A program made the position numbers and the translations under genes. This document shows positions 3,575 through 22,110 of a DNA stretch of 22,110 nucleotides, one piece after another. The notes below the pieces were generated by a model, which was not told the DNA's origin, searched no databases, and saw nothing but the letters and a program-made list of their open reading frames with translations. Positions within the stretch are counted from its first letter, which is position 1. Each line of letters opens with the position of its first letter. This stretch comes from a virus: IMG/VR virus record IMGVR_UViG_3300030430_000495, positions 1 through 22,110 of that record, one strand, 5' to 3'.

Positions 3575-3581
3575 TGTGTCC

Positions 3582-5382: not shown

Positions 5383-5420
5383 CCATCATAGCGTCAACAA
5401 ATAGATTCTCGTTAGAGCAT

Positions 5421-6390: not shown

Positions 6391-6614
6391 TTATCAGCCT
6401 TGTTTTCTAATCGCTTAAAGATCGCACCCAGCATCTCTTTGATCTCACGAATGTCCTCACGGTAATCATCTTTTGCCACATACTTCTCAGAAATTTGCTT
6501 CATCTCTAAATCAAGCCTGTCAAGCAGCGTGTAAACACGGTTGTATGCCCACGCTGCCAAGAAACCACCGATCAGGATAATTACGTCAAAGACTATCTGA
6601 CCAGTTAGCTCCAT
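6387..6614 (-). CDS. Small membrane-anchored coiled-coil protein
   Basis: A 75-residue protein with one N-terminal membrane segment (about residues 7-26, VFDVIILIGGFLAAWAYNRV) followed by a charged helical region (29-75) with heptad-like hydrophobic spacing, including RLDLEMKQISEKYV and IREIKEMLGAIFKRL. The layout (anchor, then coiled coil) resembles small XhlA-type phage proteins and also inner-membrane spanin subunits. It sits at the head of the lipase-lipoprotein-holin-endolysin group and overlaps the lipase gene by four bases. A role in lysis is inferred from this context; topology and partner are not shown. Confidence 0.75.
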   Translation of the reverse strand: MELTGQIVFDVIILIGGFLAAWAYNRVYTLLDRLDLEMKQISEKYVAKDDYREDIREIKEMLGAIFKRLENKADK

Positions 6615-6871
6615 TACTCAGACTCGCGTGGGTCTATCCAGCCTTCTACCGCTGTGAACGTACCGTCAGACGCGCATGTATATTTGCACCCATACCAATC
6701 CTCTGGCTCGCTAACTCCTTCGATAAGAGTGGCATTCCCACTGTTGAGATCACCAATAATAAACTCAGCAGGATCGCCAACAGTAATTGTTTCGCTTCCC
6801 ATCGTGACTGATTTGTCATCAGCAAAGAGGTATCTGGATGTGTTAGTTGCATTGTCTACAATAGTCTTCAT
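6614..6871 (-). CDS. Small phage protein, possible fibre-associated protein
   Basis: An 85-residue acidic protein starting MKTIVDNATNTSRYLFADD. It has a beta-rich first half (SVTMGSETITVGDPAEF) and a C-terminal half with two cysteines and three aromatic positions (WYGCKYTCASDG, then EGWIDP). I do not recognise a named family. It lies 3 bases after the two-propeller adhesin gene and overlaps the next gene by one base, so it might be a fibre-end or assembly factor, in the way the 138-residue protein follows the polyglycine adhesin. That role is inference from position only. Confidence 0.7.
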   Translation of the reverse strand: MKTIVDNATNTSRYLFADDKSVTMGSETITVGDPAEFIIGDLNSGNATLIEGVSEPEDWYGCKYTCASDGTFTAVEGWIDPRESE

Positions 6872-6874
6872 GTT

Positions 6875-9481
6875 TTACCCTTTAATCATAAGTGTTGTGT
6901 TAGCTACTGCCTTGCCAGCAGTCACGCTAGAAGACGTTGTAGAAAGTGTGCCATCGTCTTGGACGTAGTAGGTGCTGCCGATTGTGAAATTGGGAATACT
7001 ACTGGATAACGTGCCTACAATTCCTGTGCCATAGTTTGAGTTACCATTATCTTTAAACGCTATGACAATTTTATTGTTGTCAGTGTCTTTAGTTATGGCA
7101 ATCTCTCCACCACTTGTAGAGGTAGAGTTAAAAACAACAGCATCACCAAACGTAATTGTGTCGCCGTCCACTGTGCCTATCTTAGTCTTACCTTTATTTG
7201 AATCGTTGGTGTCGTTGTAACCTATGATAACTTTATTTGTAGTAGAGTCATAAAACGCTGGTGTGCCGTGGAACGCTACATTGGTACTGTTCCAAGTAAC
7301 CGCTGTGCCAACGCTAATTGATGTGCCGCTGACTGTACCTATGATTGCTTTCCCAATGTTGGAGTTATCCGCATCGCTAAAAAATATTACCGATTTGTTT
7401 GCATTAGCGTCATAAGCCACAGCAGTTCTAAGGGCATTTGCTGCAACTCCCGTGGTGAATGATCCAACACTCATGCTTGTGCCTGATATTGTTACAACAC
7501 AAGCGTCCCCACGATTACTGTTATCTCCATTTGCAAAGAACACAACGTGCTTATTCGCGGTAGAGTCATAAGCAATCGCTATATATACGGATGAATCATT
7601 ATTAAGTGCAGATGCTCCACCAAAACTTATACTTGTTCCAGAAACCGTACCTACTTGTGCAGTAAGATAACCACTATTACCATTGTCTTGGTAAACAAAT
7701 AATGTTTTTTGTGCGTTTGCATCATAAGAGGCTTCGACATACATAGCTTCAGCAGATTCAAATACTACTTCTGTACCGAAAGAGATGCTGGTTCCTGATA
7801 CAGTACCGACTATTGCTGTACCATAGTTGCTATTGCCTACGTCCCTATACCCAATAACTACTTTTCCAGCGGAAGCATCAAAAACTGCGGTCACATAGTC
7901 TGTGCTACCACTATTAAATTCCACAGCACTACCATAGCTTATCGACGTACCAGACACAGTACCCACGATAGCTTTTCCTTTGTTTGAGTCGCCATAATCT
8001 GCGTAAGCTATTACGATCTTGTCATTTACTGTGTCGTAGACAATCGCCGGGTATCTCGAATTACCCGTATTATAAACTGCCTCACTTCCGTAACTCGCTG
8101 TCGTTAGTGGCGGCAACAACGACCCGTTGGTAATCACCCCGCCCTCGACAACCACTTCGCCTGATGCAGAGTTGTTGATAGCTTGGTTAGTAATCCCTAC
8201 GAAGTCAGCAAAGTTTGAATATTGGGAGCGATAAGCAATTGCTGTTCCGGCGCTTGCGTTGCCGTCATCTTGGTAGGAAAAAACCACCAGCTTGTTTGTC
8301 GAGTCATAGGCAGCTACCGCTGGAGTTCGCCCTACAGTAGCGGCCTCGAAGACTGCCGGAGTGCTAAAAGTTAGACTCGTGCCGCTTACGGTGGCTTCAA
8401 CATAAGTGCCGTAAGTAGAGTTACCGGAGTCCCCGTAGCCGATTACAGTCTTACCCGCCTCCACATTATATGCAGCTTGCATTTGTACACTGCCTGTGGA
8501 AGCAGACTCGAAAACTGCTGCACTGCCAAAGCTAATGCTCGTACCGCTTACTGTTCCGACGATGCCTGTGCCATAGCCACTATTACCTTGGTCGGAGTAA
8601 GCTATAACAATTTTATAATTAGCTGAATCATAAGCTGCCGTCTGATGTTCTGTTTGAGCCGATTCAAAAACCACCGGAGAACCGAAAGATATAGATGTTA
8701 CATTTACCGTCCCTACAACCGCTGTTCCATAGTTTGAATTTCCTGCGTCCCGATAAACAATTACGGTTCTATCTGCATTAGAATCATAAACAGCAACGGG
8801 GAAGTGAGTATATCCAGACTCAAACTCTTGAGGCGTACCGAAGCTCAGGCTCGTACCGGATATTGTACCGACCACCGCATAACCATCACCGCCATCGCTA
8901 TCGTTCGTGTATGCAATCACAACCCTGTTACTTGTAGAATCAAAAGCGCAGGTAGGAGAAAATGTGACATCAGTTCCACTAAATACCGCAGATGAGCCAA
9001 ACGACACGCTAGTCCCCGATATGGTCGCGGTGACTGCTCTCCCGTAATTGTTAATAGTAGAATCGCGGAAAGCAATAACAAACTTGCCTTCTGTAGAGTT
9101 AAAGCAAACGGCAATACGTCTATACTGATCTCCGGTTACATTTCCTGAAAACTCAGCGGCAGTTCCAAAGCTGATGCTTGTACCGCTAATCGTGCCGACC
9201 ACAGCCATTCCTTTACTGGTGCTGCCGTCCTTGTACGCTACAAGGATTTTGTTGTTAGTCGAGTCATAAGCAATGGCATTATCAATAACACTTTGACCGG
9301 CTCCTGAGATATATGTCGCAGCGGTTCCTAGAGAGGATGATACTCCATCAACCGCAATCGCTTTTACAGTCCCGTCACTTAGTAAGGCAACAGTCTGACC
9401 TGTAGCCAGATTACCGCTGGCCGTTGCCGTTATAGCTTTTGCGCCAGCACCTGCTGGTAATAAATCGCTTAGATTGCTCAT
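6875..9481 (-). CDS. Two-propeller adhesin / tail-fibre-type protein (2 x 7 repeats in a shared scaffold)
   Basis: An 868-residue extracellular-type protein, ATGA-coupled to its paralogue upstream. Residues 1-46 are the anchor shared with the two preceding fibre genes (NLSDLLPAGAG, ASGNLATGQTVALLSDGTV). Residues about 52-420 hold seven 52-54-residue repeats, marked by AYDSTNNKIVIAY-type strands starting near 71, 125, 179, 231, 283, 337 and 391, each followed by GNSNYGTAVVGTVSGT and ISFG..VFES. Residues 425-460 are the first half of the cap module (NQAINNSASGEVVVEGGV). Seven more repeats follow (near 482, 534, 587, 638, 690, 743, 798), then the second cap half (IGSTYYVQDDGTLSTT to residue 868). 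Seven repeats per block suits a seven-bladed beta-propeller. Probably binds host surface glycans or protein; ligand unknown. Confidence 0.88.
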   Translation of the reverse strand: MSNLSDLLPAGAGAKAITATASGNLATGQTVALLSDGTVKAIAVDGVSSSLGTAATYISGAGQSVIDNAIAYDSTNNKILVAYKDGSTSKGMAVVGTISGTSISFGTAAEFSGNVTGDQYRRIAVCFNSTEGKFVIAFRDSTINNYGRAVTATISGTSVSFGSSAVFSGTDVTFSPTCAFDSTSNRVVIAYTNDSDGGDGYAVVGTISGTSLSFGTPQEFESGYTHFPVAVYDSNADRTVIVYRDAGNSNYGTAVVGTVNVTSISFGSPVVFESAQTEHQTAAYDSANYKIVIAYSDQGNSGYGTGIVGTVSGTSISFGSAAVFESASTGSVQMQAAYNVEAGKTVIGYGDSGNSTYGTYVEATVSGTSLTFSTPAVFEAATVGRTPAVAAYDSTNKLVVFSYQDDGNASAGTAIAYRSQYSNFADFVGITNQAINNSASGEVVVEGGVITNGSLLPPLTTASYGSEAVYNTGNSRYPAIVYDTVNDKIVIAYADYGDSNKGKAIVGTVSGTSISYGSAVEFNSGSTDYVTAVFDASAGKVVIGYRDVGNSNYGTAIVGTVSGTSISFGTEVVFESAEAMYVEASYDANAQKTLFVYQDNGNSGYLTAQVGTVSGTSISFGGASALNNDSSVYIAIAYDSTANKHVVFFANGDNSNRGDACVVTISGTSMSVGSFTTGVAANALRTAVAYDANANKSVIFFSDADNSNIGKAIIGTVSGTSISVGTAVTWNSTNVAFHGTPAFYDSTTNKVIIGYNDTNDSNKGKTKIGTVDGDTITFGDAVVFNSTSTSGGEIAITKDTDNNKIVIAFKDNGNSNYGTGIVGTLSSSIPNFTIGSTYYVQDDGTLSTTSSSVTAGKAVANTTLMIKG
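6998..8098 (-). repeat. Second seven-copy propeller repeat block of the 868-residue adhesin
   Basis: Seven diverged units of about 52 codons (about 156 bases), coding for residues 462-828. Each unit carries YD-x-x-x-N-K-x-V-I, GNSN-x-G and GTVSGTSIS elements. The block is inserted between the two halves of the cap module. Confidence 0.8.
8222..9328 (-). repeat. First seven-copy propeller repeat block of the 868-residue adhesin
   Basis: Seven units of 52-54 codons, coding for residues 52-420. The block opens with the LGTAATY strand that the last unit lacks, as expected if the first and last blades are closed by strands from both ends (Velcro closure of a propeller). Confidence 0.8.
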
Positions 9482-10932
9482 GTGCTAAAATCCAGATTGA
9501 TGCTTGTGGCTGACATTGCTTTACCCGCCTCTACACTAGGATTACCCGCTGTGGTAGAAAATGTTCCGTCAGTTTGAACGTAGTAGATTGCTCCCGGCGT
9601 TAGACTGCTCAGTCCACTAGATGCAATCCCACCCTTCATCGTTATCTTGCCACTTGCTGCGTTGGATATAGCTGCGTCTGCTACGCCTAAGAAGTTTGTC
9701 GAGGTGAGGTTTGTATCAGTGTAGGCAGGGGTATAACTTATCCCTGTGCCGTAACTATTATTAGGAGTATCGTGGAAAGCTACGACAACTTTTTTGTCAT
9801 TTTCGTCGTAAGCTGATCCGGGGTCTTTTGCTTGCGCGTCTAAAGTAACCTCACTGCCTTTGGAAAAGGTAGTTCCGCTTACCGCACAGGGAATAGCAAT
9901 TAAAGCATCACCAGTTTTTTGGCTGACAAAAACCACCTTTTCTGCAATAGAATGATAAGAAACAGTTTGGTTTATGTCTGAAGCTGACGTAAATATGCTT
10001 ACTCTTGTTCCAAAGGATATAGAATTACCACTGATTGTCCCTATTTGGCCGTAAACGTCCGAACTCTCCCTGTAAGCGAGAAACATTCGGTCTGCACTAG
10101 AATCGTGTACTAACCTATTGGAGCGAGTTATTTCATTAGAAGCAAAAGTCGCCCCAGAGGCAACTACCGTAAGAGTAGTTCCTGAAACCGTGATTAGATT
10201 AACCCTACCGTTGCCGCCATTGCTAGTGCCGTACATGTACACTACCCTGTCGTTGGTAGAGTCATACGCTATTGCGGGTTGGAAAACAGCTTCGCTAGTC
10301 AGCGTAGCTGTAGTGCCTACGGTGGCTGTAGTTCCGCTCACTGATACAGTTCTTGCATAACCATAATCTTGTCCAGCACCTTCTACCCAAGCAATAACCG
10401 ATTTGCTGGCTGCTGAGTCGTAGGTAATGACAGAATATTCAACGCCGCTCGTATTAGTTGAACATTGAACCTTTGTGCCGAAGGAAATTGATGTACCTGA
10501 GACAGACCCCGCTATAACGTGCGAGCCAGTTTGATTAAAGCCAATTACAAATGCGTCTGCACTAGAATCATAAGCTACTCCGCACTCAGTGGTGCTGCCG
10601 CTCTCAAAAACAACAGGTGTGCCATAAGTCAAAGCTCCATTAGAACAGGTGGCGACCACCGCAGTGCCATAGTTAGAGTTGCCTCCATCTTGATACACGA
10701 TAACAAGTTTACCGTTACCATATGCAACAGCGTTGTGATTTGTCTCCGCAGACTCAAATACAGCTTCACTACCAACAGCTTCGCTCTGTGATGTAGCGTC
10801 AGGGGCAACTTGAGATGCAGTTCCATTAGTATTCAGAACAACAGGCTTACCCTGCGCTATAGTTCCACTTGCGGTAAAATCTAATTGTTTACTAGCCGCA
10901 CCTGCTGGTAAAAGATCGCTTAAATTAGTCAT
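9478..10932 (-). CDS. One-propeller adhesin / tail-fibre-type protein (7 repeats)
   Basis: A 484-residue paralogue of the next gene downstream. Residues 1-45 are the shared anchor (NLSDLLPAGAASK, ASGTIAQGKPVVLNTNGT). Residues 52-403 hold seven repeats of about 50-52 residues, with strand markers near 69, 119, 170, 222, 275, 326 and 374 (such as VAYGNGKLVIVYQD, AYDSTNDRVVYMY). Residues 411-484 are the intact cap (AAISNAASGKITMKGGI, then AIYYVQTDGTFSTTAG and VEAGKAMSATSINL). Repeats are more diverged than in the 868-residue protein. Start ATG 10932 overlaps the preceding gene by 8 bases. A role as receptor-binding or decoration protein is inferred from repeat type and position; no ligand can be named. 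Confidence 0.87.
   Translation of the reverse strand: MTNLSDLLPAGAASKQLDFTASGTIAQGKPVVLNTNGTASQVAPDATSQSEAVGSEAVFESAETNHNAVAYGNGKLVIVYQDGGNSNYGTAVVATCSNGALTYGTPVVFESGSTTECGVAYDSSADAFVIGFNQTGSHVIAGSVSGTSISFGTKVQCSTNTSGVEYSVITYDSAASKSVIAWVEGAGQDYGYARTVSVSGTTATVGTTATLTSEAVFQPAIAYDSTNDRVVYMYGTSNGGNGRVNLITVSGTTLTVVASGATFASNEITRSNRLVHDSSADRMFLAYRESSDVYGQIGTISGNSISFGTRVSIFTSASDINQTVSYHSIAEKVVFVSQKTGDALIAIPCAVSGTTFSKGSEVTLDAQAKDPGSAYDENDKKVVVAFHDTPNNSYGTGISYTPAYTDTNLTSTNFLGVADAAISNAASGKITMKGGIASSGLSSLTPGAIYYVQTDGTFSTTAGNPSVEAGKAMSATSINLDFST
9724..10779 (-). repeat. Seven-copy propeller repeat block of the 484-residue adhesin
   Basis: Seven diverged units of about 50-52 codons, coding for residues 52-403, inserted between anchor and cap at the same site as the first block of the 868-residue paralogue. 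Confidence 0.78.
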
Positions 10933-11341
10933 CAGTTATCTCTACCCAAGAAGTTGTTTCTTCGTCCCACAAGTAGTTCTTCTCATCATCAGGACGAGCT
11001 ACAGGAGGGTCGAAATCACAAGTTTCTTCATTAAATGTCCAAGATGGATAACCATTCTCAGCCCAATACTCTTTTAGACTATTTTGTAAAGTTGTTTTTT
11101 CTTCTTCAGTTATGTCATTAAAGTGGTGAACGTCTGTAATTACCTCTCCACTCCACTCATAAGTACAACCTGCGTATGTTCGATATGGCCCAGACGAAGG
11201 TTTCTCTACTCTTATAAACTTAGCAAAGGACGAAGGAAGATTATCAGTATCTATGTCTGGAAACGCTTGGCGAAAGTTATCCTCAATAATGGGATGCTCG
11301 AAAGGCTGACCATCGACAACCTTAATATAATAGTTCATCAC
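10925..11341 (-). CDS. Possible tail-fibre assembly/chaperone-type protein
   Basis: A 138-residue acidic protein that follows the polyglycine adhesin gene with an ATGA overlap and precedes the one-propeller gene with an 8-base overlap. It opens NYYIKVVDGQPFEHPIIEDN and ends with the Trp-rich stretch NYLWDEETTSWVEI, a layout reminiscent of small phage tail-fibre assembly proteins and host-range chaperones that are encoded right after fibre genes. Two start codons in tandem (ATGATG) are possible. Two cysteines (about residues 59 and 108) are present. No membrane segment. The chaperone role is inferred from position and composition only. Confidence 0.72.
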   Translation of the reverse strand: MMNYYIKVVDGQPFEHPIIEDNFRQAFPDIDTDNLPSSFAKFIRVEKPSSGPYRTYAGCTYEWSGEVITDVHHFNDITEEEKTTLQNSLKEYWAENGYPSWTFNEETCDFDPPVARPDDEKNYLWDEETTSWVEITDD

Positions 11342-12519
11342 AAGTTACCTGTGTTCGTGCTTGGGAACGCACGGTTTGGCCCCCAGATAATTCTCACATA
11401 TCCGTTTGTGCCATCTCCTCCCCACAGACCGCCGCTATTTGAACCAGCGCCACCGCCGCCACCGTACGATCCTCCCGGTCTTCCACCAGAATAACCGGAG
11501 CTTGATGCGTCATTACCACCTGATCCTCCGCGTCCTCTAAAAGATGCTTTGGCAGAATCTGAGAACCCACCAGTATAAGTTCCTCCAGCACCACTAGAGC
11601 CTTCACCAAGAGCGTTAACACCACCGCCTCCACCGCCGCCAATAGCACCCCCACCACCAGCGCCACCGCCTCCACCGCCGCCAGCGCCATCGCCACCATC
11701 TCTGTCTGAACTACCACCACCATTACCGCCAGCACCAGAGTATCCTCCAGCGCCGCCTCCACCGCCTCCATCGTTCCCGTTCGTGAGACAATCGCCGCCT
11801 TGACCACCGCCATCACCTGCGTAGTTTCCACCACCACCTGTAGTTCCGCCTCCAAGTCCGGCGACAGTGCTTGTGCTTATAAAGTAACTGTCTCCTCCCG
11901 CCTCACCAGCACCCGTTACTGAAGGGTATCCATCTCCTTTAGCTCCTACCACTACGGTATAAGAAGAACCCGGAGTCACAGAGATATTGTTTTTCCAACC
12001 AAGACCTCCACCTCCACCACCTCGTGAACTATTCTGATCCGATCTGTTACCACTCGCTCCCGCACCTATGCACACCACAGACACAGACGTAACTCCTGCT
12101 GGAGCTACCCAAGAATTAGTTCCCGAACTATACGCTGCCTGCCCAGTTACGGATAAAGCTCCCGGTGGGTCCATTAAGTTAAGCGTAGTAGCTGATATCG
12201 CTGTTCCCAGCTTGATACCGTTACTAGGTGATGTGGTAACAAGGCTCCCCGAATTGTTTGCATAGTAATCGGAACCAACAGTTAGACTTGATTGCGCTGT
12301 GTTGATTCCTCCGAAAAGGTCTATCTTTCCTGTAGCACCGTTACTTATGGCCTCCTGAGCCATTCCAATTAATCTTGCATAATTACCTCCGTCATATGCT
12401 TCAACCGTGCCATCAGTGTTAAGAGCCACGGCTTGCCCAGCGGTAATGTTTGTGGACGCAGTAAGTTCAATGACATTTTGCCCAGAACCACTGGGCAACA
12501 GCTCAGAAAGATTACTCAT
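11338..12519 (-). CDS. Polyglycine-rich adhesin with the shared anchor-cap scaffold
   Basis: A 393-residue protein. Residues 1-40 are the shared anchor (MSNLSELLPSGSGQ, ASTNITAGQAVALNTDGTV) and residues 48-115 the cap (EAISNGATGKIDLFGGI, VGSDYYANNSGSLVTT), joined with no propeller between them. Residues 130-200 are a beta region with a Trp (NSWVAPAGVTSVSVVCIGAG) that often precedes glycine-rich adhesin domains. Residues 203-370 are dominated by glycine runs separated by Ala, Ser and Asp. The end is GYVRIIWGPNRAFPSTNTG. Polyglycine domains of this kind form the receptor-binding tip in T-even gp38-type adhesins, so surface recognition is likely. TAATG coupling with the upstream gene fixes the start. 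Confidence 0.85.
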   Translation of the reverse strand: MSNLSELLPSGSGQNVIELTASTNITAGQAVALNTDGTVEAYDGGNYARLIGMAQEAISNGATGKIDLFGGINTAQSSLTVGSDYYANNSGSLVTTSPSNGIKLGTAISATTLNLMDPPGALSVTGQAAYSSGTNSWVAPAGVTSVSVVCIGAGASGNRSDQNSSRGGGGGGLGWKNNISVTPGSSYTVVVGAKGDGYPSVTGAGEAGGDSYFISTSTVAGLGGGTTGGGGNYAGDGGGQGGDCLTNGNDGGGGGGAGGYSGAGGNGGGSSDRDGGDGAGGGGGGGAGGGGAIGGGGGGGVNALGEGSSGAGGTYTGGFSDSAKASFRGRGGSGGNDASSSGYSGGRPGGSYGGGGGAGSNSGGLWGGDGTNGYVRIIWGPNRAFPSTNTGNL

Positions 12520-13475
12520 TAGACGCTCCAGCCTATCGTGCCGTTGATGTATGTCATCACGATCTCAGCGAAGTTCTTGTCAAAAGTCAGGTCACTTGCG
12601 CTTGAAGCTATGTTGCTTGAATTACGACCCACAGTAAAACTTGTGGTTGCAGCAGCACCCGTGCCGTCTTTAATTACCACAACATCTCCTGCACTGGGAG
12701 ATGAAGGCAGCGTAATCGTTATACTACCAGCGGTTACCACGATGTAATCCCTGTTGCTCGCCGTATAGTTGCCGCTCTTCAGAAGCGGGACTATCGCACC
12801 AGAGCCGCCATTGGCAAATGGTAGCACACCAGATACGTTTGCAGTCAGACTACAATAGGTGGTCGCTGTAGAACCTGTGCCACCATTGCCCGTGGGTAAA
12901 GTGCCTGTAACTTGAGAAGTTAAGTCCACACCTGACAGAGCGCCACCAAGAGTCAAATTCCCTGAGCTTGTCACCGTACCGGACAGACTTATTCCGTTTA
13001 CCGTGCCCGTGCCACCCACACTGGTAACGGTGCCGTCACCCACATCCACTTGGCCCAAGGCATCTACCACAGCAGCCCCGGAACCTGCACCATCAAGGTA
13101 AACAATTTTAGCGGCCCCGGTAGGTATAGTGACGTTTGCACCAGAGCCTTGACTGATATTTATAGATTGACTTCCGCTAGTAGCATTTTCTATCCACATA
13201 ACACGAGATACGGTGTTTGGCCCTATAGTCAGTGTTCTAGTGGTACTTAAACTTGTGCCAGAGGTCACCTTAAAATAAAGAGCACGAGCAGGATCAGTAG
13301 CGCCGTCTGCTACTGTTGTCGTAGCATCCGCGTCTGAACTGAAAGCTGCTTGCGTAGCAAACCCTAACGATTCTCCAATAAGCTCAAGATTGGTGTTTGT
13401 ACTTGTACCCCAAGTGCCATCTTCATCACCCGTGGTGATTTCTTTGAGCCTTAGATTATTTACATAAGTTGCCAT
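12519..13475 (-). CDS. Tail-fibre-like structural protein
   Basis: A 318-residue beta-rich protein with the opening MATYVNNLRLKEITTGDEDG followed by TWGTSTNTNLELIGESLG, a start common to fibre proteins of marine phages. Residues 145-210 carry Gly/Thr/Ser-rich strands (DGTVTSVGGTGTVNGISL, VTGTLPTGNGGTGS), a pattern typical of fibre shafts in which short repeats trimerise. The C-terminal part (230-318) is a compact domain (DYIVVTAGSITITLPSSP, VVVIKDGTG) ending in GTIGWSV. An AGGTGA site lies 5 bases before ATG 13475. It precedes the adhesin genes in the same operon, so it probably forms part of the appendage that carries them, though no contact is shown. Confidence 0.8.
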   Translation of the reverse strand: MATYVNNLRLKEITTGDEDGTWGTSTNTNLELIGESLGFATQAAFSSDADATTTVADGATDPARALYFKVTSGTSLSTTRTLTIGPNTVSRVMWIENATSGSQSINISQGSGANVTIPTGAAKIVYLDGAGSGAAVVDALGQVDVGDGTVTSVGGTGTVNGISLSGTVTSSGNLTLGGALSGVDLTSQVTGTLPTGNGGTGSTATTYCSLTANVSGVLPFANGGSGAIVPLLKSGNYTASNRDYIVVTAGSITITLPSSPSAGDVVVIKDGTGAAATTSFTVGRNSSNIASSASDLTFDKNFAEIVMTYINGTIGWSV

Positions 13476-13486
13476 GATTCACCTCA

Positions 13487-14380
13487 TTAAGCGGCAGTAT
13501 CTATGTCTATCCAATTAGGTGTCTGACTATCTTCTACGTTAGTCCAGCCACCCCTAGTTATTGTTCCAACTGCTCCTGTGCCTGATACACCTGTAGGAAT
13601 TATTGTTTCATCTACGTCAGTATCTAAACTTCCTATCGCACCTGTGCCTGAGACCCCTGTTACTGCTGGAACTACCGTAGCGCCGTCTGCGCCTATTTGT
13701 CCTGTTCCAAGAACCCCTGTAGGAGCTACATTTTTATCATATACAGGTAAGGCTGTCCCTATTGCTCCTGTACCTACAACTCCCGTTACTATTGGCGCAG
13801 GGGTGTCTGTAACTGTTCCTACTGCACTTGTACCGCTAACTCCACTAACTGTGCGAGTAATCGCTATGGTTGTGGTGCCTATGCCACCAGTGCCAGCTAC
13901 ACCCGTTGGAACAAGGAACTCCCCAACAGTTGTGGCTACAGTTCCTATCGCGCCTGTGCCTGATACACCTATGGGGATTACAATGTCATCTACTACGACA
14001 ACAAAACCACCCATTTGTCCGGTGCCAGACACTCCTGTCAGAGTAATCGAGCCACTATAATTAGTAGCTACCGTCCCTACTGCACCTGTGCCTGCAACTC
14101 CTGTAGGAGCTACATTATCTCCCAGTACAATAACTGCGGTGCCTATGGCTCCTGTGCCGGTAACTCCTGTCGGAACTATATTCTTCGACAGACTTATTAC
14201 TACCGACCCTACGGCTCCGGTGCCAGCTACAGAGACATTACCATTGTCTCCCCAGCCTCCATCACCCCAAGCATTATTACCCCAAGTAGAGCCGAGGCTT
14301 ACGACAGTTCCTATGCCGTCCCAAGTGCCTGTCCCCCAAGTGCCATCACCCCATCCTCTTGTTGGTATGGTAAGAGACAC
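13487..14380 (-). CDS. Repeat-rich structural protein with 11 TGVSGTGAIG units
   Basis: A 297-residue protein starting at GTG 14380, preceded by an AGGA site 8 bases upstream. Residues 8-47 are Trp/Gly-rich (GWGDGTWGTGTWDGIG and TWGNNAWGDGGWGDNG). Residues 49-278 are eleven repeats of 20-22 residues with core consensus PTGVSGTGAIGT followed by a variable hydrophobic strand. The C-terminus (279-297) is a short acidic tail with two Trp. The regular spacing suggests a beta-solenoid or stacked-strand fibre shaft. It sits between small virion-type genes and the tail-fibre-like gene. No enzymatic motif. I know similar repeats from uncharacterised marine phage proteins but no defined function. Confidence 0.82.
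   Translation of the reverse strand: MSLTIPTRGWGDGTWGTGTWDGIGTVVSLGSTWGNNAWGDGGWGDNGNVSVAGTGAVGSVVISLSKNIVPTGVTGTGAIGTAVIVLGDNVAPTGVAGTGAVGTVATNYSGSITLTGVSGTGQMGGFVVVVDDIVIPIGVSGTGAIGTVATTVGEFLVPTGVAGTGGIGTTTIAITRTVSGVSGTSAVGTVTDTPAPIVTGVVGTGAIGTALPVYDKNVAPTGVLGTGQIGADGATVVPAVTGVSGTGAIGSLDTDVDETIIPTGVSGTGAVGTITRGGWTNVEDSQTPNWIDIDTAA
13547..14236 (-). repeat. Eleven 60-66-base coding repeats
   Basis: The units encode the TG-V-x-GTG-x-[IVM]-G core. Most are 22 codons long and some 20 codons, with the difference in the variable segment between cores. The DNA copies are diverged, so this is an old expansion. Confidence 0.8.
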
Positions 14381-14393
14381 AAGACAGTCCTAC

Positions 14394-14858
14394 TTAGGCA
14401 ATGCGAATAATCGCAGTAGATGCAGCGGCGGCAGGAAACTGAATCTGAAAGTCTCCAGAACTTACAGTTTGATCTCCACCAAAACTTAACACCGCAACCG
14501 CAGAGTTAGAGTTGTTTGTGTTGTATATAACAGCACCACAGGTAGTAAAAGATGCGCTCGACCAAGTAGTGTCAGCAAAATCACAAATGGCAGTTGTGCC
14601 GTCACTTGTAGGAGTCACGTTAGTTAGAGTGTTACCACCCGCACTGTATGCTGACCCACTAGTATTAGTGGTCTCATCACTATTACCTGTAACGGTTGAA
14701 TAATTAGTGGTGGCGGCACCATAAGTTCCAGAGCCAGCAGATTGTGATTTTAACAACGCAATCTTGAGAGCATCCGCTCCATTCTGTAGATCGTGTAGCC
14801 CTTTGAATAGCTCTACCTTAAAGCTAGTGGGCATCGCTGTAGATATAGTAATAGCCAT
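14394..14858 (-). CDS. Small beta-rich virion protein
   Basis: A 154-residue protein rich in Ser, Thr, Ala and Gly. The N-terminus (MAITISTAMPTSFKVELFKG, then LQNGADALKIALLKS) is a pattern I associate with a widespread family of small phage structural proteins encoded just before fibre genes. Residues 45-80 are a Thr/Ser-rich loop region; residues 85-154 are strands (TAICDFADTTWSSASF, CGAVIYNTNNSNSAVAVLSFGG). Two cysteines occur near residues 91 and 108. No membrane segment or motif. It follows the 95-residue gene by one base and probably encodes a tail or decoration component, by position. Confidence 0.75.
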   Translation of the reverse strand: MAITISTAMPTSFKVELFKGLHDLQNGADALKIALLKSQSAGSGTYGAATTNYSTVTGNSDETTNTSGSAYSAGGNTLTNVTPTSDGTTAICDFADTTWSSASFTTCGAVIYNTNNSNSAVAVLSFGGDQTVSSGDFQIQFPAAAASTAIIRIA

Positions 14859-14859
14859 G

Positions 14860-15147
14860 TTAAGTCTCCAATAGTTTCACAAGTTCCGAATGCCCAGCGG
14901 CTCGAAATTGGTTTGCAAGTGTGGTGCGGTCTGAACGTATAGCTTGTCTTATACCCTCAACCAACACCCCTCGAATCTGGTCTTTAAATGCTTCTGCCTG
15001 TTCTCTTACAACAGGATGGGAGTTTCCACCCACATATATAATCTTGTTCAGGATTTGTTCTGCCATCTCTTCGGCAGTAAAACCCCGTCCTGACACTGTG
15101 TTAACCGTAAAGTTACCTATCTGTAATGCGCCATTAGCACTCAGCAT
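14860..15147 (-). CDS. Small helical phage protein of unknown function
   Basis: A 95-residue protein that starts in a TAATG-type overlap with the second adaptor gene. The first 25 residues are polar with short strands (GALQIGNFTVNTVSGRG); residues 24-95 look fully helical and amphipathic (EEMAEQILNKIIYVGG, VVREQAEAFKDQIRGVLVEG, TTLANQFRAAGHSELVKLL). No named family is recognised. The position after the adaptor and before small tail proteins suggests a structural or assembly role. Confidence 0.75.
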   Translation of the reverse strand: MLSANGALQIGNFTVNTVSGRGFTAEEMAEQILNKIIYVGGNSHPVVREQAEAFKDQIRGVLVEGIRQAIRSDRTTLANQFRAAGHSELVKLLET

Positions 15148-15773
15148 TACACCACCTCACTTCTAGTTTGACCTGAACGATAGGTATCTTCACGTAATTT
15201 CCCATCCCCAAGGTTTTTCAACAGTAATATTGCTTGTTTATACAGTTCTGTATAAAGGTTAACCATGTCAGATTCACCTTTTTGAAAACGTATGGCTTCA
15301 ACTAAAGCTCCATTTAATAGCGCAGAGTCAAAGTTAGTGCCTAACCAAGTAGTTCCAGCGGTGACTATAGACTCTGGGTAATAAGCAAAATGTAGTTCAG
15401 CAGAAAAACTAGCGTTAGGTGTTGGGCCTACAATAAAAGTATCCGAATCAAATATAGCGTAGTGCTTGGGTATTCCTGTTGTTGCTGGGTTAGGATAAGC
15501 CTCACGTATAAAGTTAGAATCTTTGTCTAACAAGTATATGTAATCACTGCCGCTTATAATTGCTAGAGAATATACATACAGCATATTAGTCGGCATCGTT
15601 AAATACTTGTTACCAGACGTAAGCGTGCCGGTCTGGTTTTTACGAAGCGCAGGAAGCTGTACAGTGTTGTATATCTTTTGCTCTGCTTGTTGAGCAAACA
15701 TAGCGTGCTGATCTGCCGTAAACGTCTGTTCGCAGATGTCTTCTACATTTGCTTTTAGCTCAGTGTAATTCAC
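15147..15773 (-). CDS. Head-tail adaptor-like protein (second copy)
   Basis: A 208-residue protein beginning at GTG 15773, sharing one base with the TAG stop of the upstream 57-residue gene. The layout is that of connector/adaptor proteins of short-tailed phages: N-terminal helices (YTELKANVEDICEQTF, HAMFAQQAEQKIYNTV), a beta core at 45-130 (GTLTSGNKYLTMPTNML, then FIVGPTPNASFSAELHFAYY) and C-terminal helices (ALLNGALVEAIRFQKGE, NLYTELYKQAILLLKN). Such proteins dock under the portal ring and carry the tail. It is similar in plan to the 230-residue protein at 17766, from which it is separated by three genes. Confidence 0.7.
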   Translation of the reverse strand: MNYTELKANVEDICEQTFTADQHAMFAQQAEQKIYNTVQLPALRKNQTGTLTSGNKYLTMPTNMLYVYSLAIISGSDYIYLLDKDSNFIREAYPNPATTGIPKHYAIFDSDTFIVGPTPNASFSAELHFAYYPESIVTAGTTWLGTNFDSALLNGALVEAIRFQKGESDMVNLYTELYKQAILLLKNLGDGKLREDTYRSGQTRSEVV

Positions 15774-15946
15774 TACGCCATTGGCCCTCGCGCCATTGTG
15801 CCTTTGGTGGCCGCACCAGTGCCACGTATTTTAATGCCACTAGTTTTCATGTTGATCGGCTTATTAACATCCGTGCCAGCGTCATACACTGTTGGCTCGC
15901 TTGGATGCTCTATAATCTTTGGAGCTTTTTTAGTTTCACGTTTCAT
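15773..15946 (-). CDS. 57-residue conserved-looking phage protein
   Basis: A short gene starting at ATG 15946: the protein opens MKRETKKAPKIIEHPSEP and ends with GIKIRGTGAATKGTMARGPM followed by Ala. The Gly/Ala/Lys-rich tail GTGAATKGxMARGPMA is one I associate with short proteins found near head-tail genes in marine phages. The stop TAG shares its last base with the GTG of the following adaptor gene, and the start lies 9 bases after the stop of the cupredoxin-like gene, so it fits exactly between two genes. The protein is basic and probably unstructured at the ends. Function unknown; a small virion or assembly component is likely. Confidence 0.78.
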   Translation of the reverse strand: MKRETKKAPKIIEHPSEPTVYDAGTDVNKPINMKTSGIKIRGTGAATKGTMARGPMA

Positions 15947-15955
15947 ATTGTACCT

Positions 15956-16606
15956 CTACACTATAGTTATGTTGCCGACCATAGAGCTATGACTTGTGCA
16001 TTGATACACTAAACTTGTATCACTTGGCTCATGTGGCACGATAAATTGTGTTAAACCCGTTGTAGAATTATAGTTTTCTGTAACCCCCGTTGTAAAAGCA
16101 GAGCCACCGTCTGAGGTTCTAATCTGCAACGGGTGGCTTGATACATTAGCAGTATTATCTATAAGGTAAGTATGACCTTTATAGAAAGTGAAGTTAGGGT
16201 TGTTACCAGCCGTAGCACCGGGGCCGGTAAAAGTAAATGCAGAAGTCCCCACCACGCCTGCCGTATATTTAGTTACAGGCCCAGTTGTTTCATCATTTAG
16301 CCTAATCCACGCCCCACCATGTGCAAAATAAAGTCCTCCCGTTGCATGAACGTGAGCCACAGCACCATGATAAGTAGACGCACTGGGTAAATCACTCAAA
16401 GCCGCATAATAAAATACAATTTTATTAGCACCGGAACTCACATCTAATAAACCGCTAGAGTCTATAATGTCCGTAAGAGTCGTACCATTTCCAAGCGCGG
16501 CATAAACTTCATTAAAGTTGTCATTGATTTTATCCGCACCCGCACGAAGAGTATCGCCTGTTCCGTCATTGGCAGAAGAACCTATGCCTACTGTTTGTTT
16601 TGCCAT
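15956..16606 (-). CDS. Virion structural protein with C-terminal cupredoxin-like domain
   Basis: A 216-residue protein. Residues 1-38 (QTVGIGSSANDGTGDTLRAG, then DKINDNFNEVYAALG) are the opening found in many phage appendage proteins. Residues 60-105 are a small beta domain. Residues about 125-216 look like a cupredoxin fold: a strand and turn at NPNFTFYKGHTYLID, His158 in SSHPLQI, and the C-terminal signature YQCTSHSSMVGNITIV with Cys203, His206 and Met209. This parallels the plastocyanin type 1 copper ligands (one distant His, then Cys, His, Met followed by VG-x-I-x-V). Copper binding is not shown; the domain may be used only as a stable fold. It starts 3 bases after the zinc-ribbon gene. 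Confidence 0.8.
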   Translation of the reverse strand: MAKQTVGIGSSANDGTGDTLRAGADKINDNFNEVYAALGNGTTLTDIIDSSGLLDVSSGANKIVFYYAALSDLPSASTYHGAVAHVHATGGLYFAHGGAWIRLNDETTGPVTKYTAGVVGTSAFTFTGPGATAGNNPNFTFYKGHTYLIDNTANVSSHPLQIRTSDGGSAFTTGVTENYNSTTGLTQFIVPHEPSDTSLVYQCTSHSSMVGNITIV

Positions 16607-16609
16607 GCT

Positions 16610-17071
16610 CTATCCTTCGTCGAATGTCTTTGCGGTTGAGTCAAGCGTAACTGAAGTGCTGTCAAATCTAGCCGCGCTTGTTGCTGAAATACTTACAGAC
16701 CCTATATTTCCTACAGCGTTTACACTACCGCTTGCTTGCACCACATTACCTGAGACAACTCCTGATAATGTGACTTCACCCACTTTGCCAAACCCAACCA
16801 CTATGGAAGGGTCTATTGGCTCTATGTGCGCCCTGCTTGCTGCTAACTCCGCAAAATCCGGTCTAGGATTTCTTATAGCCTGCGGATCATCTACCGGAAA
16901 CTCACCTAATCTATTTTGTGGATGATCCGGGTTCCAACACTCAGGACACGCTTTTAATTCTGTAACCTTGTTCTTTTTTACTAAGTTTCTAAGTTCTCTC
17001 AGTTCATACTGAAAGCCGCATATATCACATATAGCTAACGCTCTCTGGCTAGAAGCAAAACGCTGTGTCAT
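16610..17071 (-). CDS. Zinc-ribbon structural protein
   Basis: A 153-residue protein with an N-terminal four-cysteine zinc ribbon: Cys15 and Cys18 in ICDICGFQY, Cys42 and Cys45 in KACPECWNPDHPQ. The segment between them is helical and basic. Residues 90-153 are a regular series of beta strands (VGEVTLSGVVSGNVVQ, AVGNIGSVSISATSA) rich in Val, Ser and Gly, as in small virion proteins. It lies 2 bases after the first adaptor gene and 3 bases before the cupredoxin-like gene, so it is probably part of the head-tail joint or a nearby appendage. A DNA-binding role for the ribbon is possible but not shown. Confidence 0.75.
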   Translation of the reverse strand: MTQRFASSQRALAICDICGFQYELRELRNLVKKNKVTELKACPECWNPDHPQNRLGEFPVDDPQAIRNPRPDFAELAASRAHIEPIDPSIVVGFGKVGEVTLSGVVSGNVVQASGSVNAVGNIGSVSISATSAARFDSTSVTLDSTAKTFDEG

Positions 17072-17073
17072 GT

Positions 17074-17766
17074 CTACCTCACGCCATACATGCGCGGCAC
17101 TAAGCTAATAGATGCCTTTTCTCTATCCTCTTGTGCAGCTAAATCAAACTGTCTTTCATACTCTGTCTGTAGCATGGGTATACGTGGTGCTAATTCTGGA
17201 TCTTTCTGCGCTATGTAATATGCAAGCCCTGCAACAAGACAAGGCAAAAATCTAAAATTTACATCCGCAGTTTCTACGCCACTACCTGCGTCCTGTATGC
17301 GCCGCATTCTGTAGTATTTTAAAACATACGTGCTAGACGCATCTGGAACAGGCCATACAGTAACGGAAGGATTGGCTTGTCCTCTGTCTATGTATATCTG
17401 TATAGGGCGTCCTTGTGTTAACTTGTTAGGTATACTTGCGTAAGTAGAAACGCTTATACGAGATATACTAAGATCAGACTGAGTATACACATCACCGCTA
17501 CCAGTGCGTATAACATGCTCAAGCAAATCAATGGTATCCGCCGGTAGGTCATACGACGAAGTTCCTTGTACCAAACTGATGGTGCCTTCATCTATAGTCC
17601 ACATGTTGATACCACGGTTCTGCCACTCAATAGTGAGTAGGTTCATTGACCTACGTGCAGTACGCAAGTCATAACCCGAACGCATCTCACGGCCAGCACG
17701 TTCCCACGCTTCTTCAGCGATCTCCGTGAAGTCCATATTGAATGTGGCAGTTCCCGAGGTAGCCAT
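17074..17766 (-). CDS. Head-tail adaptor / tail tubular protein A-like
   Basis: A 230-residue protein that begins MATSGTATFNMDFTEIAEEA. It has N-terminal helices (EIAEEAWERAGREMRSGYDL, ARRSMNLLTIEWQNRGINMW), a central beta region (ISLVQGTSSYDLPADTIDLL, then PIQIYIDRGQANPSVTVWPV) and C-terminal helices (RFLPCLVAGLAYYIAQKDPE, IPMLQTEYERQFDLAAQEDR). This is the plan of adaptor or tail tubular A-type proteins of short-tailed phages, which form the ring between portal and nozzle. The start is 3 bases after the stop of a 55-residue basic gene. The family call is from residue pattern and from the neighbouring genes. Confidence 0.75.
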   Translation of the reverse strand: MATSGTATFNMDFTEIAEEAWERAGREMRSGYDLRTARRSMNLLTIEWQNRGINMWTIDEGTISLVQGTSSYDLPADTIDLLEHVIRTGSGDVYTQSDLSISRISVSTYASIPNKLTQGRPIQIYIDRGQANPSVTVWPVPDASSTYVLKYYRMRRIQDAGSGVETADVNFRFLPCLVAGLAYYIAQKDPELAPRIPMLQTEYERQFDLAAQEDREKASISLVPRMYGVR

Positions 17767-17769
17767 TGT

Positions 17770-17937
17770 TTACTTCTTCTTACGGCGCATTGCAGCTTTC
17801 TTTTTAGCCTTACCGCCTTTTTTCATGCCAGTAACTTTTTTCATGCCGGTCATTCCACCGCCACGCATACCACGCATACCTGTCTTACCGCCTTTCTTCA
17901 TACCTTTCTTCATAAAACCTTTTTTAGCACCGGGCAT
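17770..17937 (-). CDS. 55-residue Met/Gly/Lys-rich basic protein
   Basis: A short gene overlapping the end of the acidic 190-residue gene by 14 bases and ending 3 bases before the first adaptor gene. The product has 9 Met in 55 residues and is otherwise almost entirely Gly, Lys, Arg and Ala, with repeated steps such as GFMKKGMKKGGKTGMRGMRG and TGMKKVTGMKKGGK. It has no acidic residue. Such a chain is unlikely to fold alone and could bind DNA or RNA or be packaged with the genome; that is inference. It is the last of the basic small-protein run. Confidence 0.72.
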   Translation of the reverse strand: MPGAKKGFMKKGMKKGGKTGMRGMRGGGMTGMKKVTGMKKGGKAKKKAAMRRKKK

Positions 17938-18496
17938 CGCTAAGTCTCCTATAAAAATTAGTACGCAATTCGTACATGTGTTTTACATCATATTCTTGAA
18001 AATACTTATCGTAATATCCAAGAGGTCTTAACTTCTCTGCGGCTTTCTCTAATTTAGACAACCGTTGCACAAACAAGAGTGCATATTCTGTTTCTGATTG
18101 AGGTTCAAACTCTCCTTCGTCGAACAACTCATTAGCTTCATCTTCGGGGTGAAATCCCATCACCCACATATCTTTGTCTCTAAATACATTGTTTGCTATA
18201 GCTTCATTAACGCTATCTACAAACTCGTGAAACTCGTCTTGATCTTCTATAAAAGCAGTGTCTGCTATTACCACTAAGTCTTTTTTATCACTCCAGTTGT
18301 GAAGTGCCATGTATAGTCTTTTAAAATCGTCTTCTTCAAATTTAAATACTATATCTACTTTGTTCTCTTGCCATGCTGCTTTCGCATATGGACATGGCGG
18401 TAAATCATTGAACTCTGGGTTACTAACTTCTAAAGTATGCTTTGACCATTCTTTTATTTCATTGACTATGTTGTTGCGTTCTGTCCAAGTAATCAT
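17924..18496 (-). CDS. Acidic 190-residue protein of unknown function
   Basis: The only large acidic protein among basic neighbours. It opens MITWTERNNIVNEIKEWSKH, has a distinctive DLPPCPYAKAAWQENKVDI segment (about residues 31-49), a central alpha/beta part (DIVFKFEEDDFKRLYMALHN, DLVVIADTAF, WVMGFHPEDEANELF) and C-terminal helices. I associate the PCPYAKxAW element with uncharacterised proteins of marine viruses but know no function. No metal site or nucleotide-binding loop is clear. The start overlaps the upstream basic gene by four bases (ATGA). A protein this acidic beside many basic ones could be their binding partner, which is speculation. Confidence 0.8.
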   Translation of the reverse strand: MITWTERNNIVNEIKEWSKHTLEVSNPEFNDLPPCPYAKAAWQENKVDIVFKFEEDDFKRLYMALHNWSDKKDLVVIADTAFIEDQDEFHEFVDSVNEAIANNVFRDKDMWVMGFHPEDEANELFDEGEFEPQSETEYALLFVQRLSKLEKAAEKLRPLGYYDKYFQEYDVKHMYELRTNFYRRLSDARC

Positions 18497-18786
18497 TTCT
18501 TCTTTACGCTCTTTCTCGCTTTGCGTAATGACTCCTTTCCTCTTTTGGCTATGGCAGCTTGTTGTGGTTTCCCTGCAACCTTGGCTCTTTGTTCTAATAC
18601 CGTTAGTATTTGAATTTTCCTAGCGAAAGGTTTGTTTACATTCTTAACTTTTCTTACTGTATCTCTGGCGTCCTGCACAGTGGCGTATTTAATACCTACT
18701 GTATCTTTTGGATTCTCATCAGTGTACAGCCTTCTGCCACTGCCTTTTGGTTTCTTACCTGTTCCTTTCTTTGGGTCTTTAGCCAT
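18493..18786 (-). CDS. Small basic phage protein
   Basis: A 97-residue, strongly basic protein. It opens MAKDPKKGTGKKPKGSGRRL, then YTDENPKDTVGIKYATVQDA, and continues with helical segments (ARDTVRKVKNV, PFARKIQILTVLEQRAKVA) and a Lys/Arg tail (KRGKESLRKARKSVKKK). The TDENPKDTVxIKYxTVQDARDT element seems a conserved core in short marine phage proteins, from memory. TAATG coupling with the preceding gene fixes the start. A nucleic-acid-associated or virion role is inferred from charge and position only. Confidence 0.78.
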   Translation of the reverse strand: MAKDPKKGTGKKPKGSGRRLYTDENPKDTVGIKYATVQDARDTVRKVKNVNKPFARKIQILTVLEQRAKVAGKPQQAAIAKRGKESLRKARKSVKKK

Positions 18787-19091
18787 TATCTTTTCTTGGC
18801 AACCTTTTTCTTAGCAGGCTTCTTTCGGCGTGCCGCTTCTACCCTTCTGGGTTTACCCGCCGGTTGTCCTATGCGTTTCTTCTGTGCAATTCTTTTTCTT
18901 TTTTCTGCTGCGGTCATCTCACCAGAAGTTTTGGGTGTCTTACTGGAAACTCGTTTAGACGGTCTACAATAAGGAGTACCACGCTTTTCACCTTTCTGCC
19001 GTCCACACGCTTTACCCGTGCGAACGTCTTTCCAATCCTCTTTGAACCAGCGTTTTAACGCCAGCCCTTTCTTAGTTTTTCTTACTGCCAC
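18786..19091 (-). CDS. Small basic Cys-containing phage protein
   Basis: I place the start at GTG 19091 (reading MAVRKTKKGLALKRWFKEDW), giving 101 residues and a 20-base overlap with the preceding gene; a GTG nine codons upstream (19118) would overlap it by 47 bases. The core is KRWFKEDWKDVRTGKACG, RQKGEKRGTPYCRPSKRVSS and KTPKTSGEMT, with two cysteines, followed by a Lys/Arg/Ala tail of about 45 residues resembling a histone-like tail. The YCRPSKRVSSKTPKT element is one I remember from short proteins of phages and large DNA viruses with no known function. Metal binding or nucleic-acid binding is possible but not shown. Confidence 0.72.
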   Translation of the reverse strand: MAVRKTKKGLALKRWFKEDWKDVRTGKACGRQKGEKRGTPYCRPSKRVSSKTPKTSGEMTAAEKRKRIAQKKRIGQPAGKPRRVEAARRKKPAKKKVAKKR

Positions 19092-19272
19092 GAGATTTAT
19101 TTCCGTAGTTCTTAGCACCCACTTTACGACACTTAGCTATGGCACCAGAGGCGTAAGCGGAGGGAAATACTCTGTATCGCGCTTTTACCTTGTGGTAGCA
19201 CGCATCCTTAGTAGACCCGCCTTTCTTAAAAGTTATGGGCCTAATTTTACCCATGCCTCTAGACTTCATCAT
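19072..19272 (-). CDS. Small basic phage protein with PSAYASGA motif
   Basis: A 66-residue basic protein, ATGA-coupled to the upstream gene (tandem ATG codons at 19272 and 19269). The core DACYHKVKARYRVFPSAYAS followed by GAIAKCRKVGAKNYG is a pattern I remember from very many short phage and giant-virus proteins, with two conserved-looking cysteines. The tail is GNKSRGSKKN. Function is unknown; a structural or nucleic-acid-associated role is only suggested by charge and by its place between other small basic proteins. Confidence 0.78.
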   Translation of the reverse strand: MMKSRGMGKIRPITFKKGGSTKDACYHKVKARYRVFPSAYASGAIAKCRKVGAKNYGNKSRGSKKN

Positions 19273-19568
19273 GCTCGTGTCTTCCCACGTTGTGCTATTC
19301 CATCACGAGGGCATTTCATCATGCCACCACGTTTAAATCCTTTTACACCGCGTCCTTTTAATATATCCGCTTGAGTTACCTTCCCATCTTTATTTAGGTC
19401 AGGAAAAGACTTTTTGTCTTTCATTGGGCCACCCTCTGCAAACCGACCTTCATCGGCTTTCATAAACTCGCGCCCCACGCTTTGTGGAACACCTGTTTCT
19501 TTAGCGAACTTTGGGTTGTTAGCCACCGCCGCCATAAACTTATGTTGCTTCTTAGATTTGCTAGGCAT
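19269..19568 (-). CDS. Small phage protein with an EF-hand-type loop
   Basis: A 99-residue protein coupled to the pqqA-like gene by TAATG. Residues 1-40 (SKKQHKFMAAVANNPKFAKE, then GVPQSVGREFMKADEG) match a short element common in phage proteins. Residues 57-68 read DLNKDGKVTQAD, with Asp57, Asn59, Asp61, Gly62 and Asp68 at the positions of a calcium-binding EF-hand or dockerin-type loop. Residues 70-99 are basic and Gly-rich (LKGRGVKGFKRGGMMK). The calcium loop is seen from spacing only; the helices normally flanking it are short or missing. Function unknown. Confidence 0.75.
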   Translation of the reverse strand: MPSKSKKQHKFMAAVANNPKFAKETGVPQSVGREFMKADEGRFAEGGPMKDKKSFPDLNKDGKVTQADILKGRGVKGFKRGGMMKCPRDGIAQRGKTRA

Positions 19569-19639
19569 TAACTATTCTTAAAGTACATAGTGACTTCAAA
19601 ACCTAAGCGAATCTTTTCGTATGTTGGTTTAGTCCACAT
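19568..19639 (-). CDS. pqqA: PqqA-like PQQ precursor peptide
   Basis: A 23-codon gene. In host PQQ biosynthesis PqqA is the ribosomal substrate: radical SAM enzyme PqqE, with chaperone PqqD, crosslinks a Glu to a Tyr, and the peptide is then cut out to become the cofactor. The product here has Trp2, Lys4, Pro5, Arg11-Leu-Gly and the hallmark FEVTMYF with Glu15 and Tyr19, the same positions as in the 23-residue Klebsiella PqqA (LGLEVTLY). Length is exactly typical. A perfect AGGAGG lies 5 bases upstream and the TAA overlaps the next ATG by one base (TAATG), so it is a real translated gene of the operon. No pqqB, C, D or E is visible in the window, so host enzymes would have to process it. Identity strong by motif; activity untested. 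Confidence 0.88.
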   Translation of the reverse strand: MWTKPTYEKIRLGFEVTMYFKNS

Positions 19640-19644
19640 AATAA

Positions 19645-19650
19645 CCTCCT
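19645..19650 (-). promoter_or_regulatory. Consensus ribosome binding site of the pqqA-like gene
   Basis: AGGAGG on the minus strand, 5 bases (TTATT) before the ATG at 19639. It lies in the short gap after the stop of the preceding basic gene and has no other gene to serve, which supports translation of the 23-codon peptide. Confidence 0.85.
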
Positions 19651-21501: not shown

Positions 21502-22110
21502 CTAGCTTGCGCCGGGCGATCCGAAGATTGCTAGTGGATCGGATACACCAAAGCTGTAACGCTCACGGGCCTTGTACCGGCTATTGCCAGTATCGAAATC
21601 GGCATCCATAGAGGTTTGCATTGGAGTTCGCACAAAGTGCTTCAGACCGTTTGGAATGTCAGTCAACAAGAACCAAGCATTAGTATCAGTCAGATAGTGG
21701 TTAACTGCGTAACCCTCTGGAATTGATCCCATGCTTCGTAGTGCGTTGATGTCATTATCGGCTGTGTTTACGCGAAGTTCAGTCTCAAGCAAACGAGTTG
21801 CCACAAACTGAAGATCGGGTGGGACAATCAACTTGCGAGGCTTAGATGCAATAAGCAAGCCGCGCTCGTCAGTCCAGTTAGCTATCTGAATAACAGACGC
21901 TTCCAAAGAAGTTTCGTTCAGATCAGCACCAGTTGCAGGCTCGTTAGAGTTAGTGCCACCAGACACCAGAGGGTGTGCAGTAGAACAAAGCTCTACACCA
22001 TCGCCGTAAGTTACTGCGGGATCGAACGCACTGTTCAAAATTGCAGCAGCTTTAACTTGCTTGGTGTAAGCCATAGCTCGTGCCAATGCTTTGGTATAAC
22101 GTGCAGACAA
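21502..22110 (-). CDS. Major capsid protein, C-terminal part
   Basis: The frame is open to the window edge, so the N-terminus is missing; the first codon seen (TTG) is probably internal. About 202 residues are visible. Helical NTP: YTKALARAMAYTKQVKAAAI leads to a region with ELCSTAHPLVSGG, a motif common in HK97-fold capsid proteins of several phage groups. Then come RKLIVPPDLQFVATRLLETE (a helix-strand pair of the peripheral domain), INALRSMGSIPEGYAVNHYL and the strand WFLLTDIPNGLKHFVRTP, ending with RERYSFGVSDPLAIFGSPG. This order of RERYSFG near the C-terminus fits the axial-domain end of an HK97-type capsid. Position before a strong terminator suits a highly expressed gene. Confidence 0.85.
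   Translation of the reverse strand: MSARYTKALARAMAYTKQVKAAAILNSAFDPAVTYGDGVELCSTAHPLVSGGTNSNEPATGADLNETSLEASVIQIANWTDERGLLIASKPRKLIVPPDLQFVATRLLETELRVNTADNDINALRSMGSIPEGYAVNHYLTDTNAWFLLTDIPNGLKHFVRTPMQTSMDADFDTGNSRYKARERYSFGVSDPLAIFGSPGAS

Follow-up and report, generated by a model that had tools for sequence, protein, structure and literature searches.

A lone pqqA gene in a phage late operon as a probable source of substrate for host PQQ synthesis

The DNA analysed here (hereafter, the window) is an IMG/VR virus contig from a marine phage, made up of just these 22,110 bases, and a gene of 23 codons within its late operon is, by profile, a genuine pqqA. We consider it likely that this is an auxiliary gene that supplies a consumed substrate (that is, the PqqA peptide) to the PqqB–E enzymes of the host. 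Most auxiliary metabolic genes encode enzymes, whereas the window phage would bring a substrate that a cofactor pathway of the host uses up. The breadth of lone pqqA genes among viruses suggests that many phages feed host cofactor synthesis, and we lean, with less assurance, towards the wider view that such feeding of PQQ synthesis is a common and convergent strategy, in which phages unrelated to one another, infecting methylotrophs or marine gammaproteobacteria, acquire a lone pqqA time and again, place it in late operons (often right after the major capsid gene) and boost the consumed peptide rather than any enzyme, the gene having been missed because it is only 23 codons long. If the gene works as proposed, phages would influence how abundant bacteria of oceans and lakes oxidize methanol and other alcohols by PQQ-dependent routes.

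A pqqA gene within the late operon

The pqqA open reading frame lies on the minus strand (19568..19639), with its ATG at 19639 and the end of its stop at 19568, and encodes a precursor peptide of 23 residues (MWTKPTYEKIRLGFEVTMYFKNS); a Shine–Dalgarno AGGAGG (19645..19650, minus strand) stands 5 bases 5' of the start, and the TAA stop shares bases with the ATG of the next gene (19568–19269), giving a TAATG coupling. The product carries Trp2, Pro5, Arg11-Leu-Gly, Glu15 and Tyr19. The ribosome-binding site, the coupling and these residues had been described in an earlier note made from the letters of the window, which called the product PqqA-like, and profile searches now bear out that identity: the peptide scores 38.6 bits against the Pfam model PF08042 (cut-off 21.1, E = 9.8e-10) and 42.6 bits against the NCBIfam equivalog model TIGR02107 (cut-off 20, E = 3.7e-11), which is about twice the required score for both curated PqqA models. 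Among 100 dinucleotide shuffles of the window the top PqqA score was 9.2 bits, compared with 61.9 bits for the actual peptide, which is somewhat favoured in this comparison because the model used was made mainly from phage PqqA. The gene thus combines a profile match above cut-off and the Glu and Tyr of the E-V-T-x-Y motif with a length inside the range of 22–29 residues and a start and ribosome-binding site of its own; the pqqBCDE genes, whose adjacency is usual but optional, are absent from its neighbouring genes in the window.

The surrounding genes are viral. Upstream lies a gene for a 96-residue protein with a profile match to DUF6321 (PF19846; 19658..19948, minus strand), which adjoins pqqA in the clade of the window, and downstream a gene for a 99-residue protein (19269..19568, minus strand), the start of which overlaps the pqqA stop and which matches phrog_16759 and also virion structural protein families. 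The operon is headed by the major capsid gene (21502..22110, minus strand; PF25209, PF10124 and phrog_371, major head protein), truncated by the end of the window, and its remainder (1035..19568) runs on the same strand as pqqA and encodes virion proteins and tail-type repeat proteins, a phage lysozyme (3582–4007, minus strand) and a lipase-like protein with a class 3 lipase domain (PF01764; 5623–6390, minus strand); a T4 gp9/10-like protein is also encoded in the operon. No near DNA relative of the window was found in the phage collection. The claim that this pqqA is phage-borne therefore stands, as the record is classed as viral, virion genes lie on both sides of pqqA and relatives show the corresponding site empty (see below).

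Substrate residues and the proposed supply of a consumed peptide

In the PQQ pathway, PqqD holds PqqA while PqqE joins its Glu and Tyr, after which a protease, PqqB and PqqC act (PMC10906245). To view these two residues without bias, copies were collected by scans anchored on the N-terminal part only, which are blind to the Glu/Tyr core. Glu15 and Tyr19 are kept in all 206 copies so obtained (122 of the methylotroph type and 84 of the window type), as is the core G-F-E-(V/I)-T-(M/L)-Y; their loss in related phages, which the earlier note had named as evidence that would count against it, was looked for and did not occur. Across the G-F-E-V/I-T-M-Y core, pN/pS is 0.045 (46 distinct window-type sequences), and over all free codons it is 0.21 and 0.07 for the two types (46 and 111 distinct sequences), although close relatives are among the contigs, so that not every copy is independent; in the window type, residues after Tyr19 vary freely. 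Purifying selection on the core is strong, and this constraint together with the retention of Glu and Tyr is the pattern that should be expected of a real PqqE substrate.

The same pattern bears on a second reading raised in the earlier note, in which the phage peptide acts as a decoy or inhibitor that occupies host PqqD/PqqE and lowers PQQ (for example, diverting carbon or halting respiration). An operon that is probably strongly expressed would suit a titrating peptide too, and the PqqA leader does bind PqqD (PMC10906245). However, a decoy should be free to lose Glu15 or Tyr19, or should even benefit from such a loss, whereas every unbiased copy keeps both and constraint on the peptide is strongest in the core; furthermore, the presence of a PQQ methanol dehydrogenase and pqqA in one contig (described below) points to PQQ being wanted. 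We regard a decoy as unlikely, and of the two alternatives that the note had left side by side, the supply of substrate is the best fit to the invariant Glu and Tyr, the purifying selection, the lack of pqqE, the late-operon position and the gene set of that contig. It is likewise improbable that the peptide has another role altogether, such as a signal, an effector of host regulation or the substrate of a different radical SAM enzyme: mining of RiPPs ties PqqA-type families to prokaryote–phage interaction through co-expression (PMC11118758), but in the key positions the phage and host PqqA sequences cannot be told apart, and the usual pathway is present in the nearest hosts.

Under the favoured reading, that of substrate supply, the phage would have taken up pqqA by itself, as an auxiliary metabolic gene, and PqqA would be produced late, together with the virion proteins. 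Host PqqD and PqqE would bind the phage peptide and cross-link Glu15 to Tyr19, and the cross-linked peptide would be finished into PQQ by the host protease, PqqB and PqqC. As one peptide is spent per PQQ whereas each enzyme works repeatedly, only the substrate would need replenishing after host expression is off; the added PQQ may then keep host quinoprotein dehydrogenases (acting on methanol and other alcohols) going during infection. With psbA, cyanophages resupply the one component that is consumed during the shut-off of host genes, and phage pqqA may follow the same logic, although psbA encodes a photosystem protein and pqqA the precursor peptide of a cofactor. Published work supports the view that PQQ can be limited by the peptide: purified PqqA added to cell extract yields PQQ (PMC9851590), and in Gluconobacter oxydans PQQ rises when pqqA alone is raised, according to work cited in PMC7936290. 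In Acetobacter, PQQ rose by 29% with pqqAB as against eightfold with pqqABCDE, and by analogy with this comparison peptide supply may not be limiting for PQQ in these hosts.

The viral gene stands alone. Near pqqA, no match to pqqB, pqqC, pqqD or pqqE was found in any viral locus examined (in which a distant PqqD could escape detection because PqqD is short and diverged), and pqqE was found in none of 47 longer viral records, with a control host contig and host genomes giving positive results. Among these 47 records, G047 (72 kb) stands out in having a gene for a PQQ methanol/ethanol dehydrogenase (608 bits) that adjoins one for a formate dehydrogenase; pqqA lies about 6 kb further along, and all three genes fall within 8 kb. 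The contig is viral by IMG/VR, and a weak hallmark check yielded only a phage endonuclease family. In one stretch of it (L402, 1990–6784), the PQQ methanol dehydrogenase is followed by a formate dehydrogenase alpha subunit, and groEL- and dnaK-like open reading frames are present on the same contig.

Probable gains, genomic positions and probable hosts

In three relatives of the window phage (L253, L266 and L279), pqqA is absent and the DUF6321 stop overlaps the start of the counterpart of the gene downstream of pqqA in the window (TGATGCC or TAATGCC); in two more (L228 and L278) the same stop and start are a few bases apart, again without pqqA. The capsid proteins of these five empty-site relatives are 82–85% identical to that of the window. 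In the window and 17 related contigs, by contrast, pqqA occupies this junction with coupling restored, and both the purine-rich ribosome-binding site and the TAATG coupling are conserved in the 17; the earlier note had suggested looking for the gene in related phage contigs, and these 17 carry it at the same place. Elsewhere in the capsid lineage of the window, about 50–270 nt separate pqqA from the capsid gene that precedes it; a third group (L143 and relatives) has it beside a homologue of the gene at 18493–18786 of the window. On these sequence comparisons, the simplest reading is that pqqA was gained several separate times. It was found in none of the 80 nearest capsid relatives (within the stretches examined, many of which end before the site) and in none of 36 longer records of the capsid lineage (a search in which the control was silent as well); as most relatives in this lineage lack the gene, it is dispensable.

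Such sporadic occurrence of a small gene could also be explained by a functionless, recently acquired host fragment or by host DNA wrongly classed as viral, and two 'Acinetobacter phage' records (see below) do look like host contigs. We consider this very improbable for pqqA as a whole, because a ribosome-binding site and translational coupling are conserved in the 17 contigs, purifying selection is evident over both sets of distinct sequences, related phages have the gene in three or more different places in the genome, and virion genes flank it where host pqqB–E do not.

Neighbourhoods were classed by immediate neighbours, as whole-flank clustering by shared genes chained nearly everything together. 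On this basis, a major capsid gene lies directly 5' of pqqA on the same strand in 43 of the 262 loci that have an upstream neighbour, and two capsid families are involved (27 loci with the phrog_267 type and 16 with the type of the window itself). Few phage genes are expressed more highly than those for capsid proteins, and a position behind them would suit a product that is consumed one for one. In another set (L134, L144, L147, L155 and relatives), pqqA (MWNKPEAIVIRAGFEVTMYFSVR) lies 8 nt behind the gene for a 166-residue protein.

With respect to bacteria, the pattern R-(L/F)-G-F-E-V-T-M-Y-F occurs on only 15 contigs among approximately 85,000 genomes, all from gammaproteobacteria and mostly from marine groups (Zhongshania, Halieaceae, a Pseudohongiella and further MAGs), and no bacterial genome matched the exact window-type pattern. 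In 13 of the 15, pqqB lies beside pqqA, along with the other operon genes up to where the contig stretch ends, and one pattern-bearing genome (G085) encodes several PQQ alcohol dehydrogenases above cut-off. Between the window peptide and the nearest host peptides (L194 and L193), 19 of 22 residues are identical. Because the closest peptides belong there, the host of the window phage is probably within this marine gammaproteobacterial group, a placement made by peptide similarity alone, and in such a host both a homologue of the gene and the pathway that it would feed exist. In three related phages (L159, L175 and L183), pqqA is identical to a Halieaceae pqqA at 64 of 66 nucleotides, which suggests that the gene was exchanged recently. 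An OM43-type pqqA was found in none of 369 Gammaproteobacteria searched, a sample that probably contained few Methylophilaceae or none.

Breadth among viruses and relation to known systems

Intact pqqA genes were found on at least 272 IMG/VR contigs and in ten public phage records, and at least 109 distinct PqqA peptides occur across 279 loci. The IMG/VR scans used degenerate DNA patterns (that is, GFEVTMY codons, with at least 120 contigs, two more patterns and an F20-type scan); the GFEVTMY-codon matches read out were all intact short PqqA open reading frames, nearly all with a purine-rich ribosome-binding site. A tblastn search with a GMEVT-type (Methylobacterium-like) PqqA peptide gave no phage match. 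The public records are those of Venkman, MEP301, MEP401, MEP402, P19250A, four Melnitz phages and an uncultured Manatee Spring podovirus, and the stated hosts of all but the last are methylotrophic Methylophilales, in a tally that covers pqqA carriers only. As these cultured OM43 and freshwater methylotroph phage–host pairs carry the unannotated gene, the proposal of substrate supply is directly testable. None of the ten records annotates pqqA as such; five have no feature at the site, and the Melnitz and Manatee Spring records have a hypothetical protein there. The expectation that gene finders miss this gene thus held for every cultured phage that carries it, and very short genes in phage operons can hold recognizable metabolic functions that go unannotated. 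The hypothetical protein called at the site lies on the strand opposite pqqA in one Melnitz stretch and in the Manatee Spring stretch (L008, 3961–4056; L003, 2067–2195). Two records named 'Acinetobacter phage MD-2021a' (CAKLQF020000010.1 and CAKLQH020000055.1; L007) were rejected as pqqA phages, as they look like bacterial chromosome contigs, with pqqA followed by pqqB, pqqC, pqqD and a radical SAM (pqqE-like) gene, and with polyphosphate kinase; they were left out of the phage set and used as a positive control.

The earlier note knew of no established description of phage PqqA, but phage PqqA is a known kind: it has been reported together with methanol dehydrogenase in phages of Lake Baikal methylotrophs, where a boost to methanol oxidation was proposed (Coutinho et al. 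2020; PMC7678222), and pqqA, pqqE and pqqD appear among the viral genes listed in a 2026 study of a reservoir (PMC13188868). In the open-access literature (subscription papers lying outside the search), we did not find described the presence of pqqA in cultured OM43 phages, its frequency, its lone late-operon form, its repeated insertion or its occurrence in marine gammaproteobacterial phages. A text search of publications on OM43 phages found no mention of PQQ genes, and one such publication lists PQQ as a medium supplement. The Baikal phage VP_266 resembles the window phage in having PqqA without a described full pqq operon, and PQQ support for methanol dehydrogenase was proposed there; it is, however, a different phage (T4-like, infecting freshwater Methylophilaceae) that also carries methanol dehydrogenase (PMC7678222), whereas the window phage has pqqA alone in a late structural operon and its host is probably a marine gammaproteobacterium. 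The bacterial PqqA of Halieaceae and related marine gammaproteobacteria shares with the phage copy its length, Trp2, Pro5, Arg-x-Gly and a Glu and Tyr four residues apart, but the bacterial gene heads a pqq operon and the phage gene is alone and coupled to a virion-operon gene. The methylotroph strain FJNU-6 has five copies of pqqA, three of them extra and lone, which, like the phage copy, add substrate to one enzyme set but are chromosomal (PMC9851590).

A further neighbourhood occurs on 16 contigs, in which pqqA follows the gene for an exported protein by 1–12 nt, with a CxxCH heme motif in most. That these are phages is shown by the spanins, ribonucleotide reductase and primase of L171 and by the tail sheath of L174. 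Family searches gave no family assignment for the exported protein, which we take to resemble copper monooxygenases; host-like genomes encode 12–14 homologues of it, and a PQQ alcohol dehydrogenase gene lies 285 bp from one of these. Behind pqqA, L141 and L171 have a gene with a CopC domain, and the exported CxxCH protein, pqqA and CopC may possibly form a phage redox or copper module tied to PQQ enzymes. The loci with the exported protein include L171 (683–2062), L174 (2540–5108), L141, L135, L338 and others.
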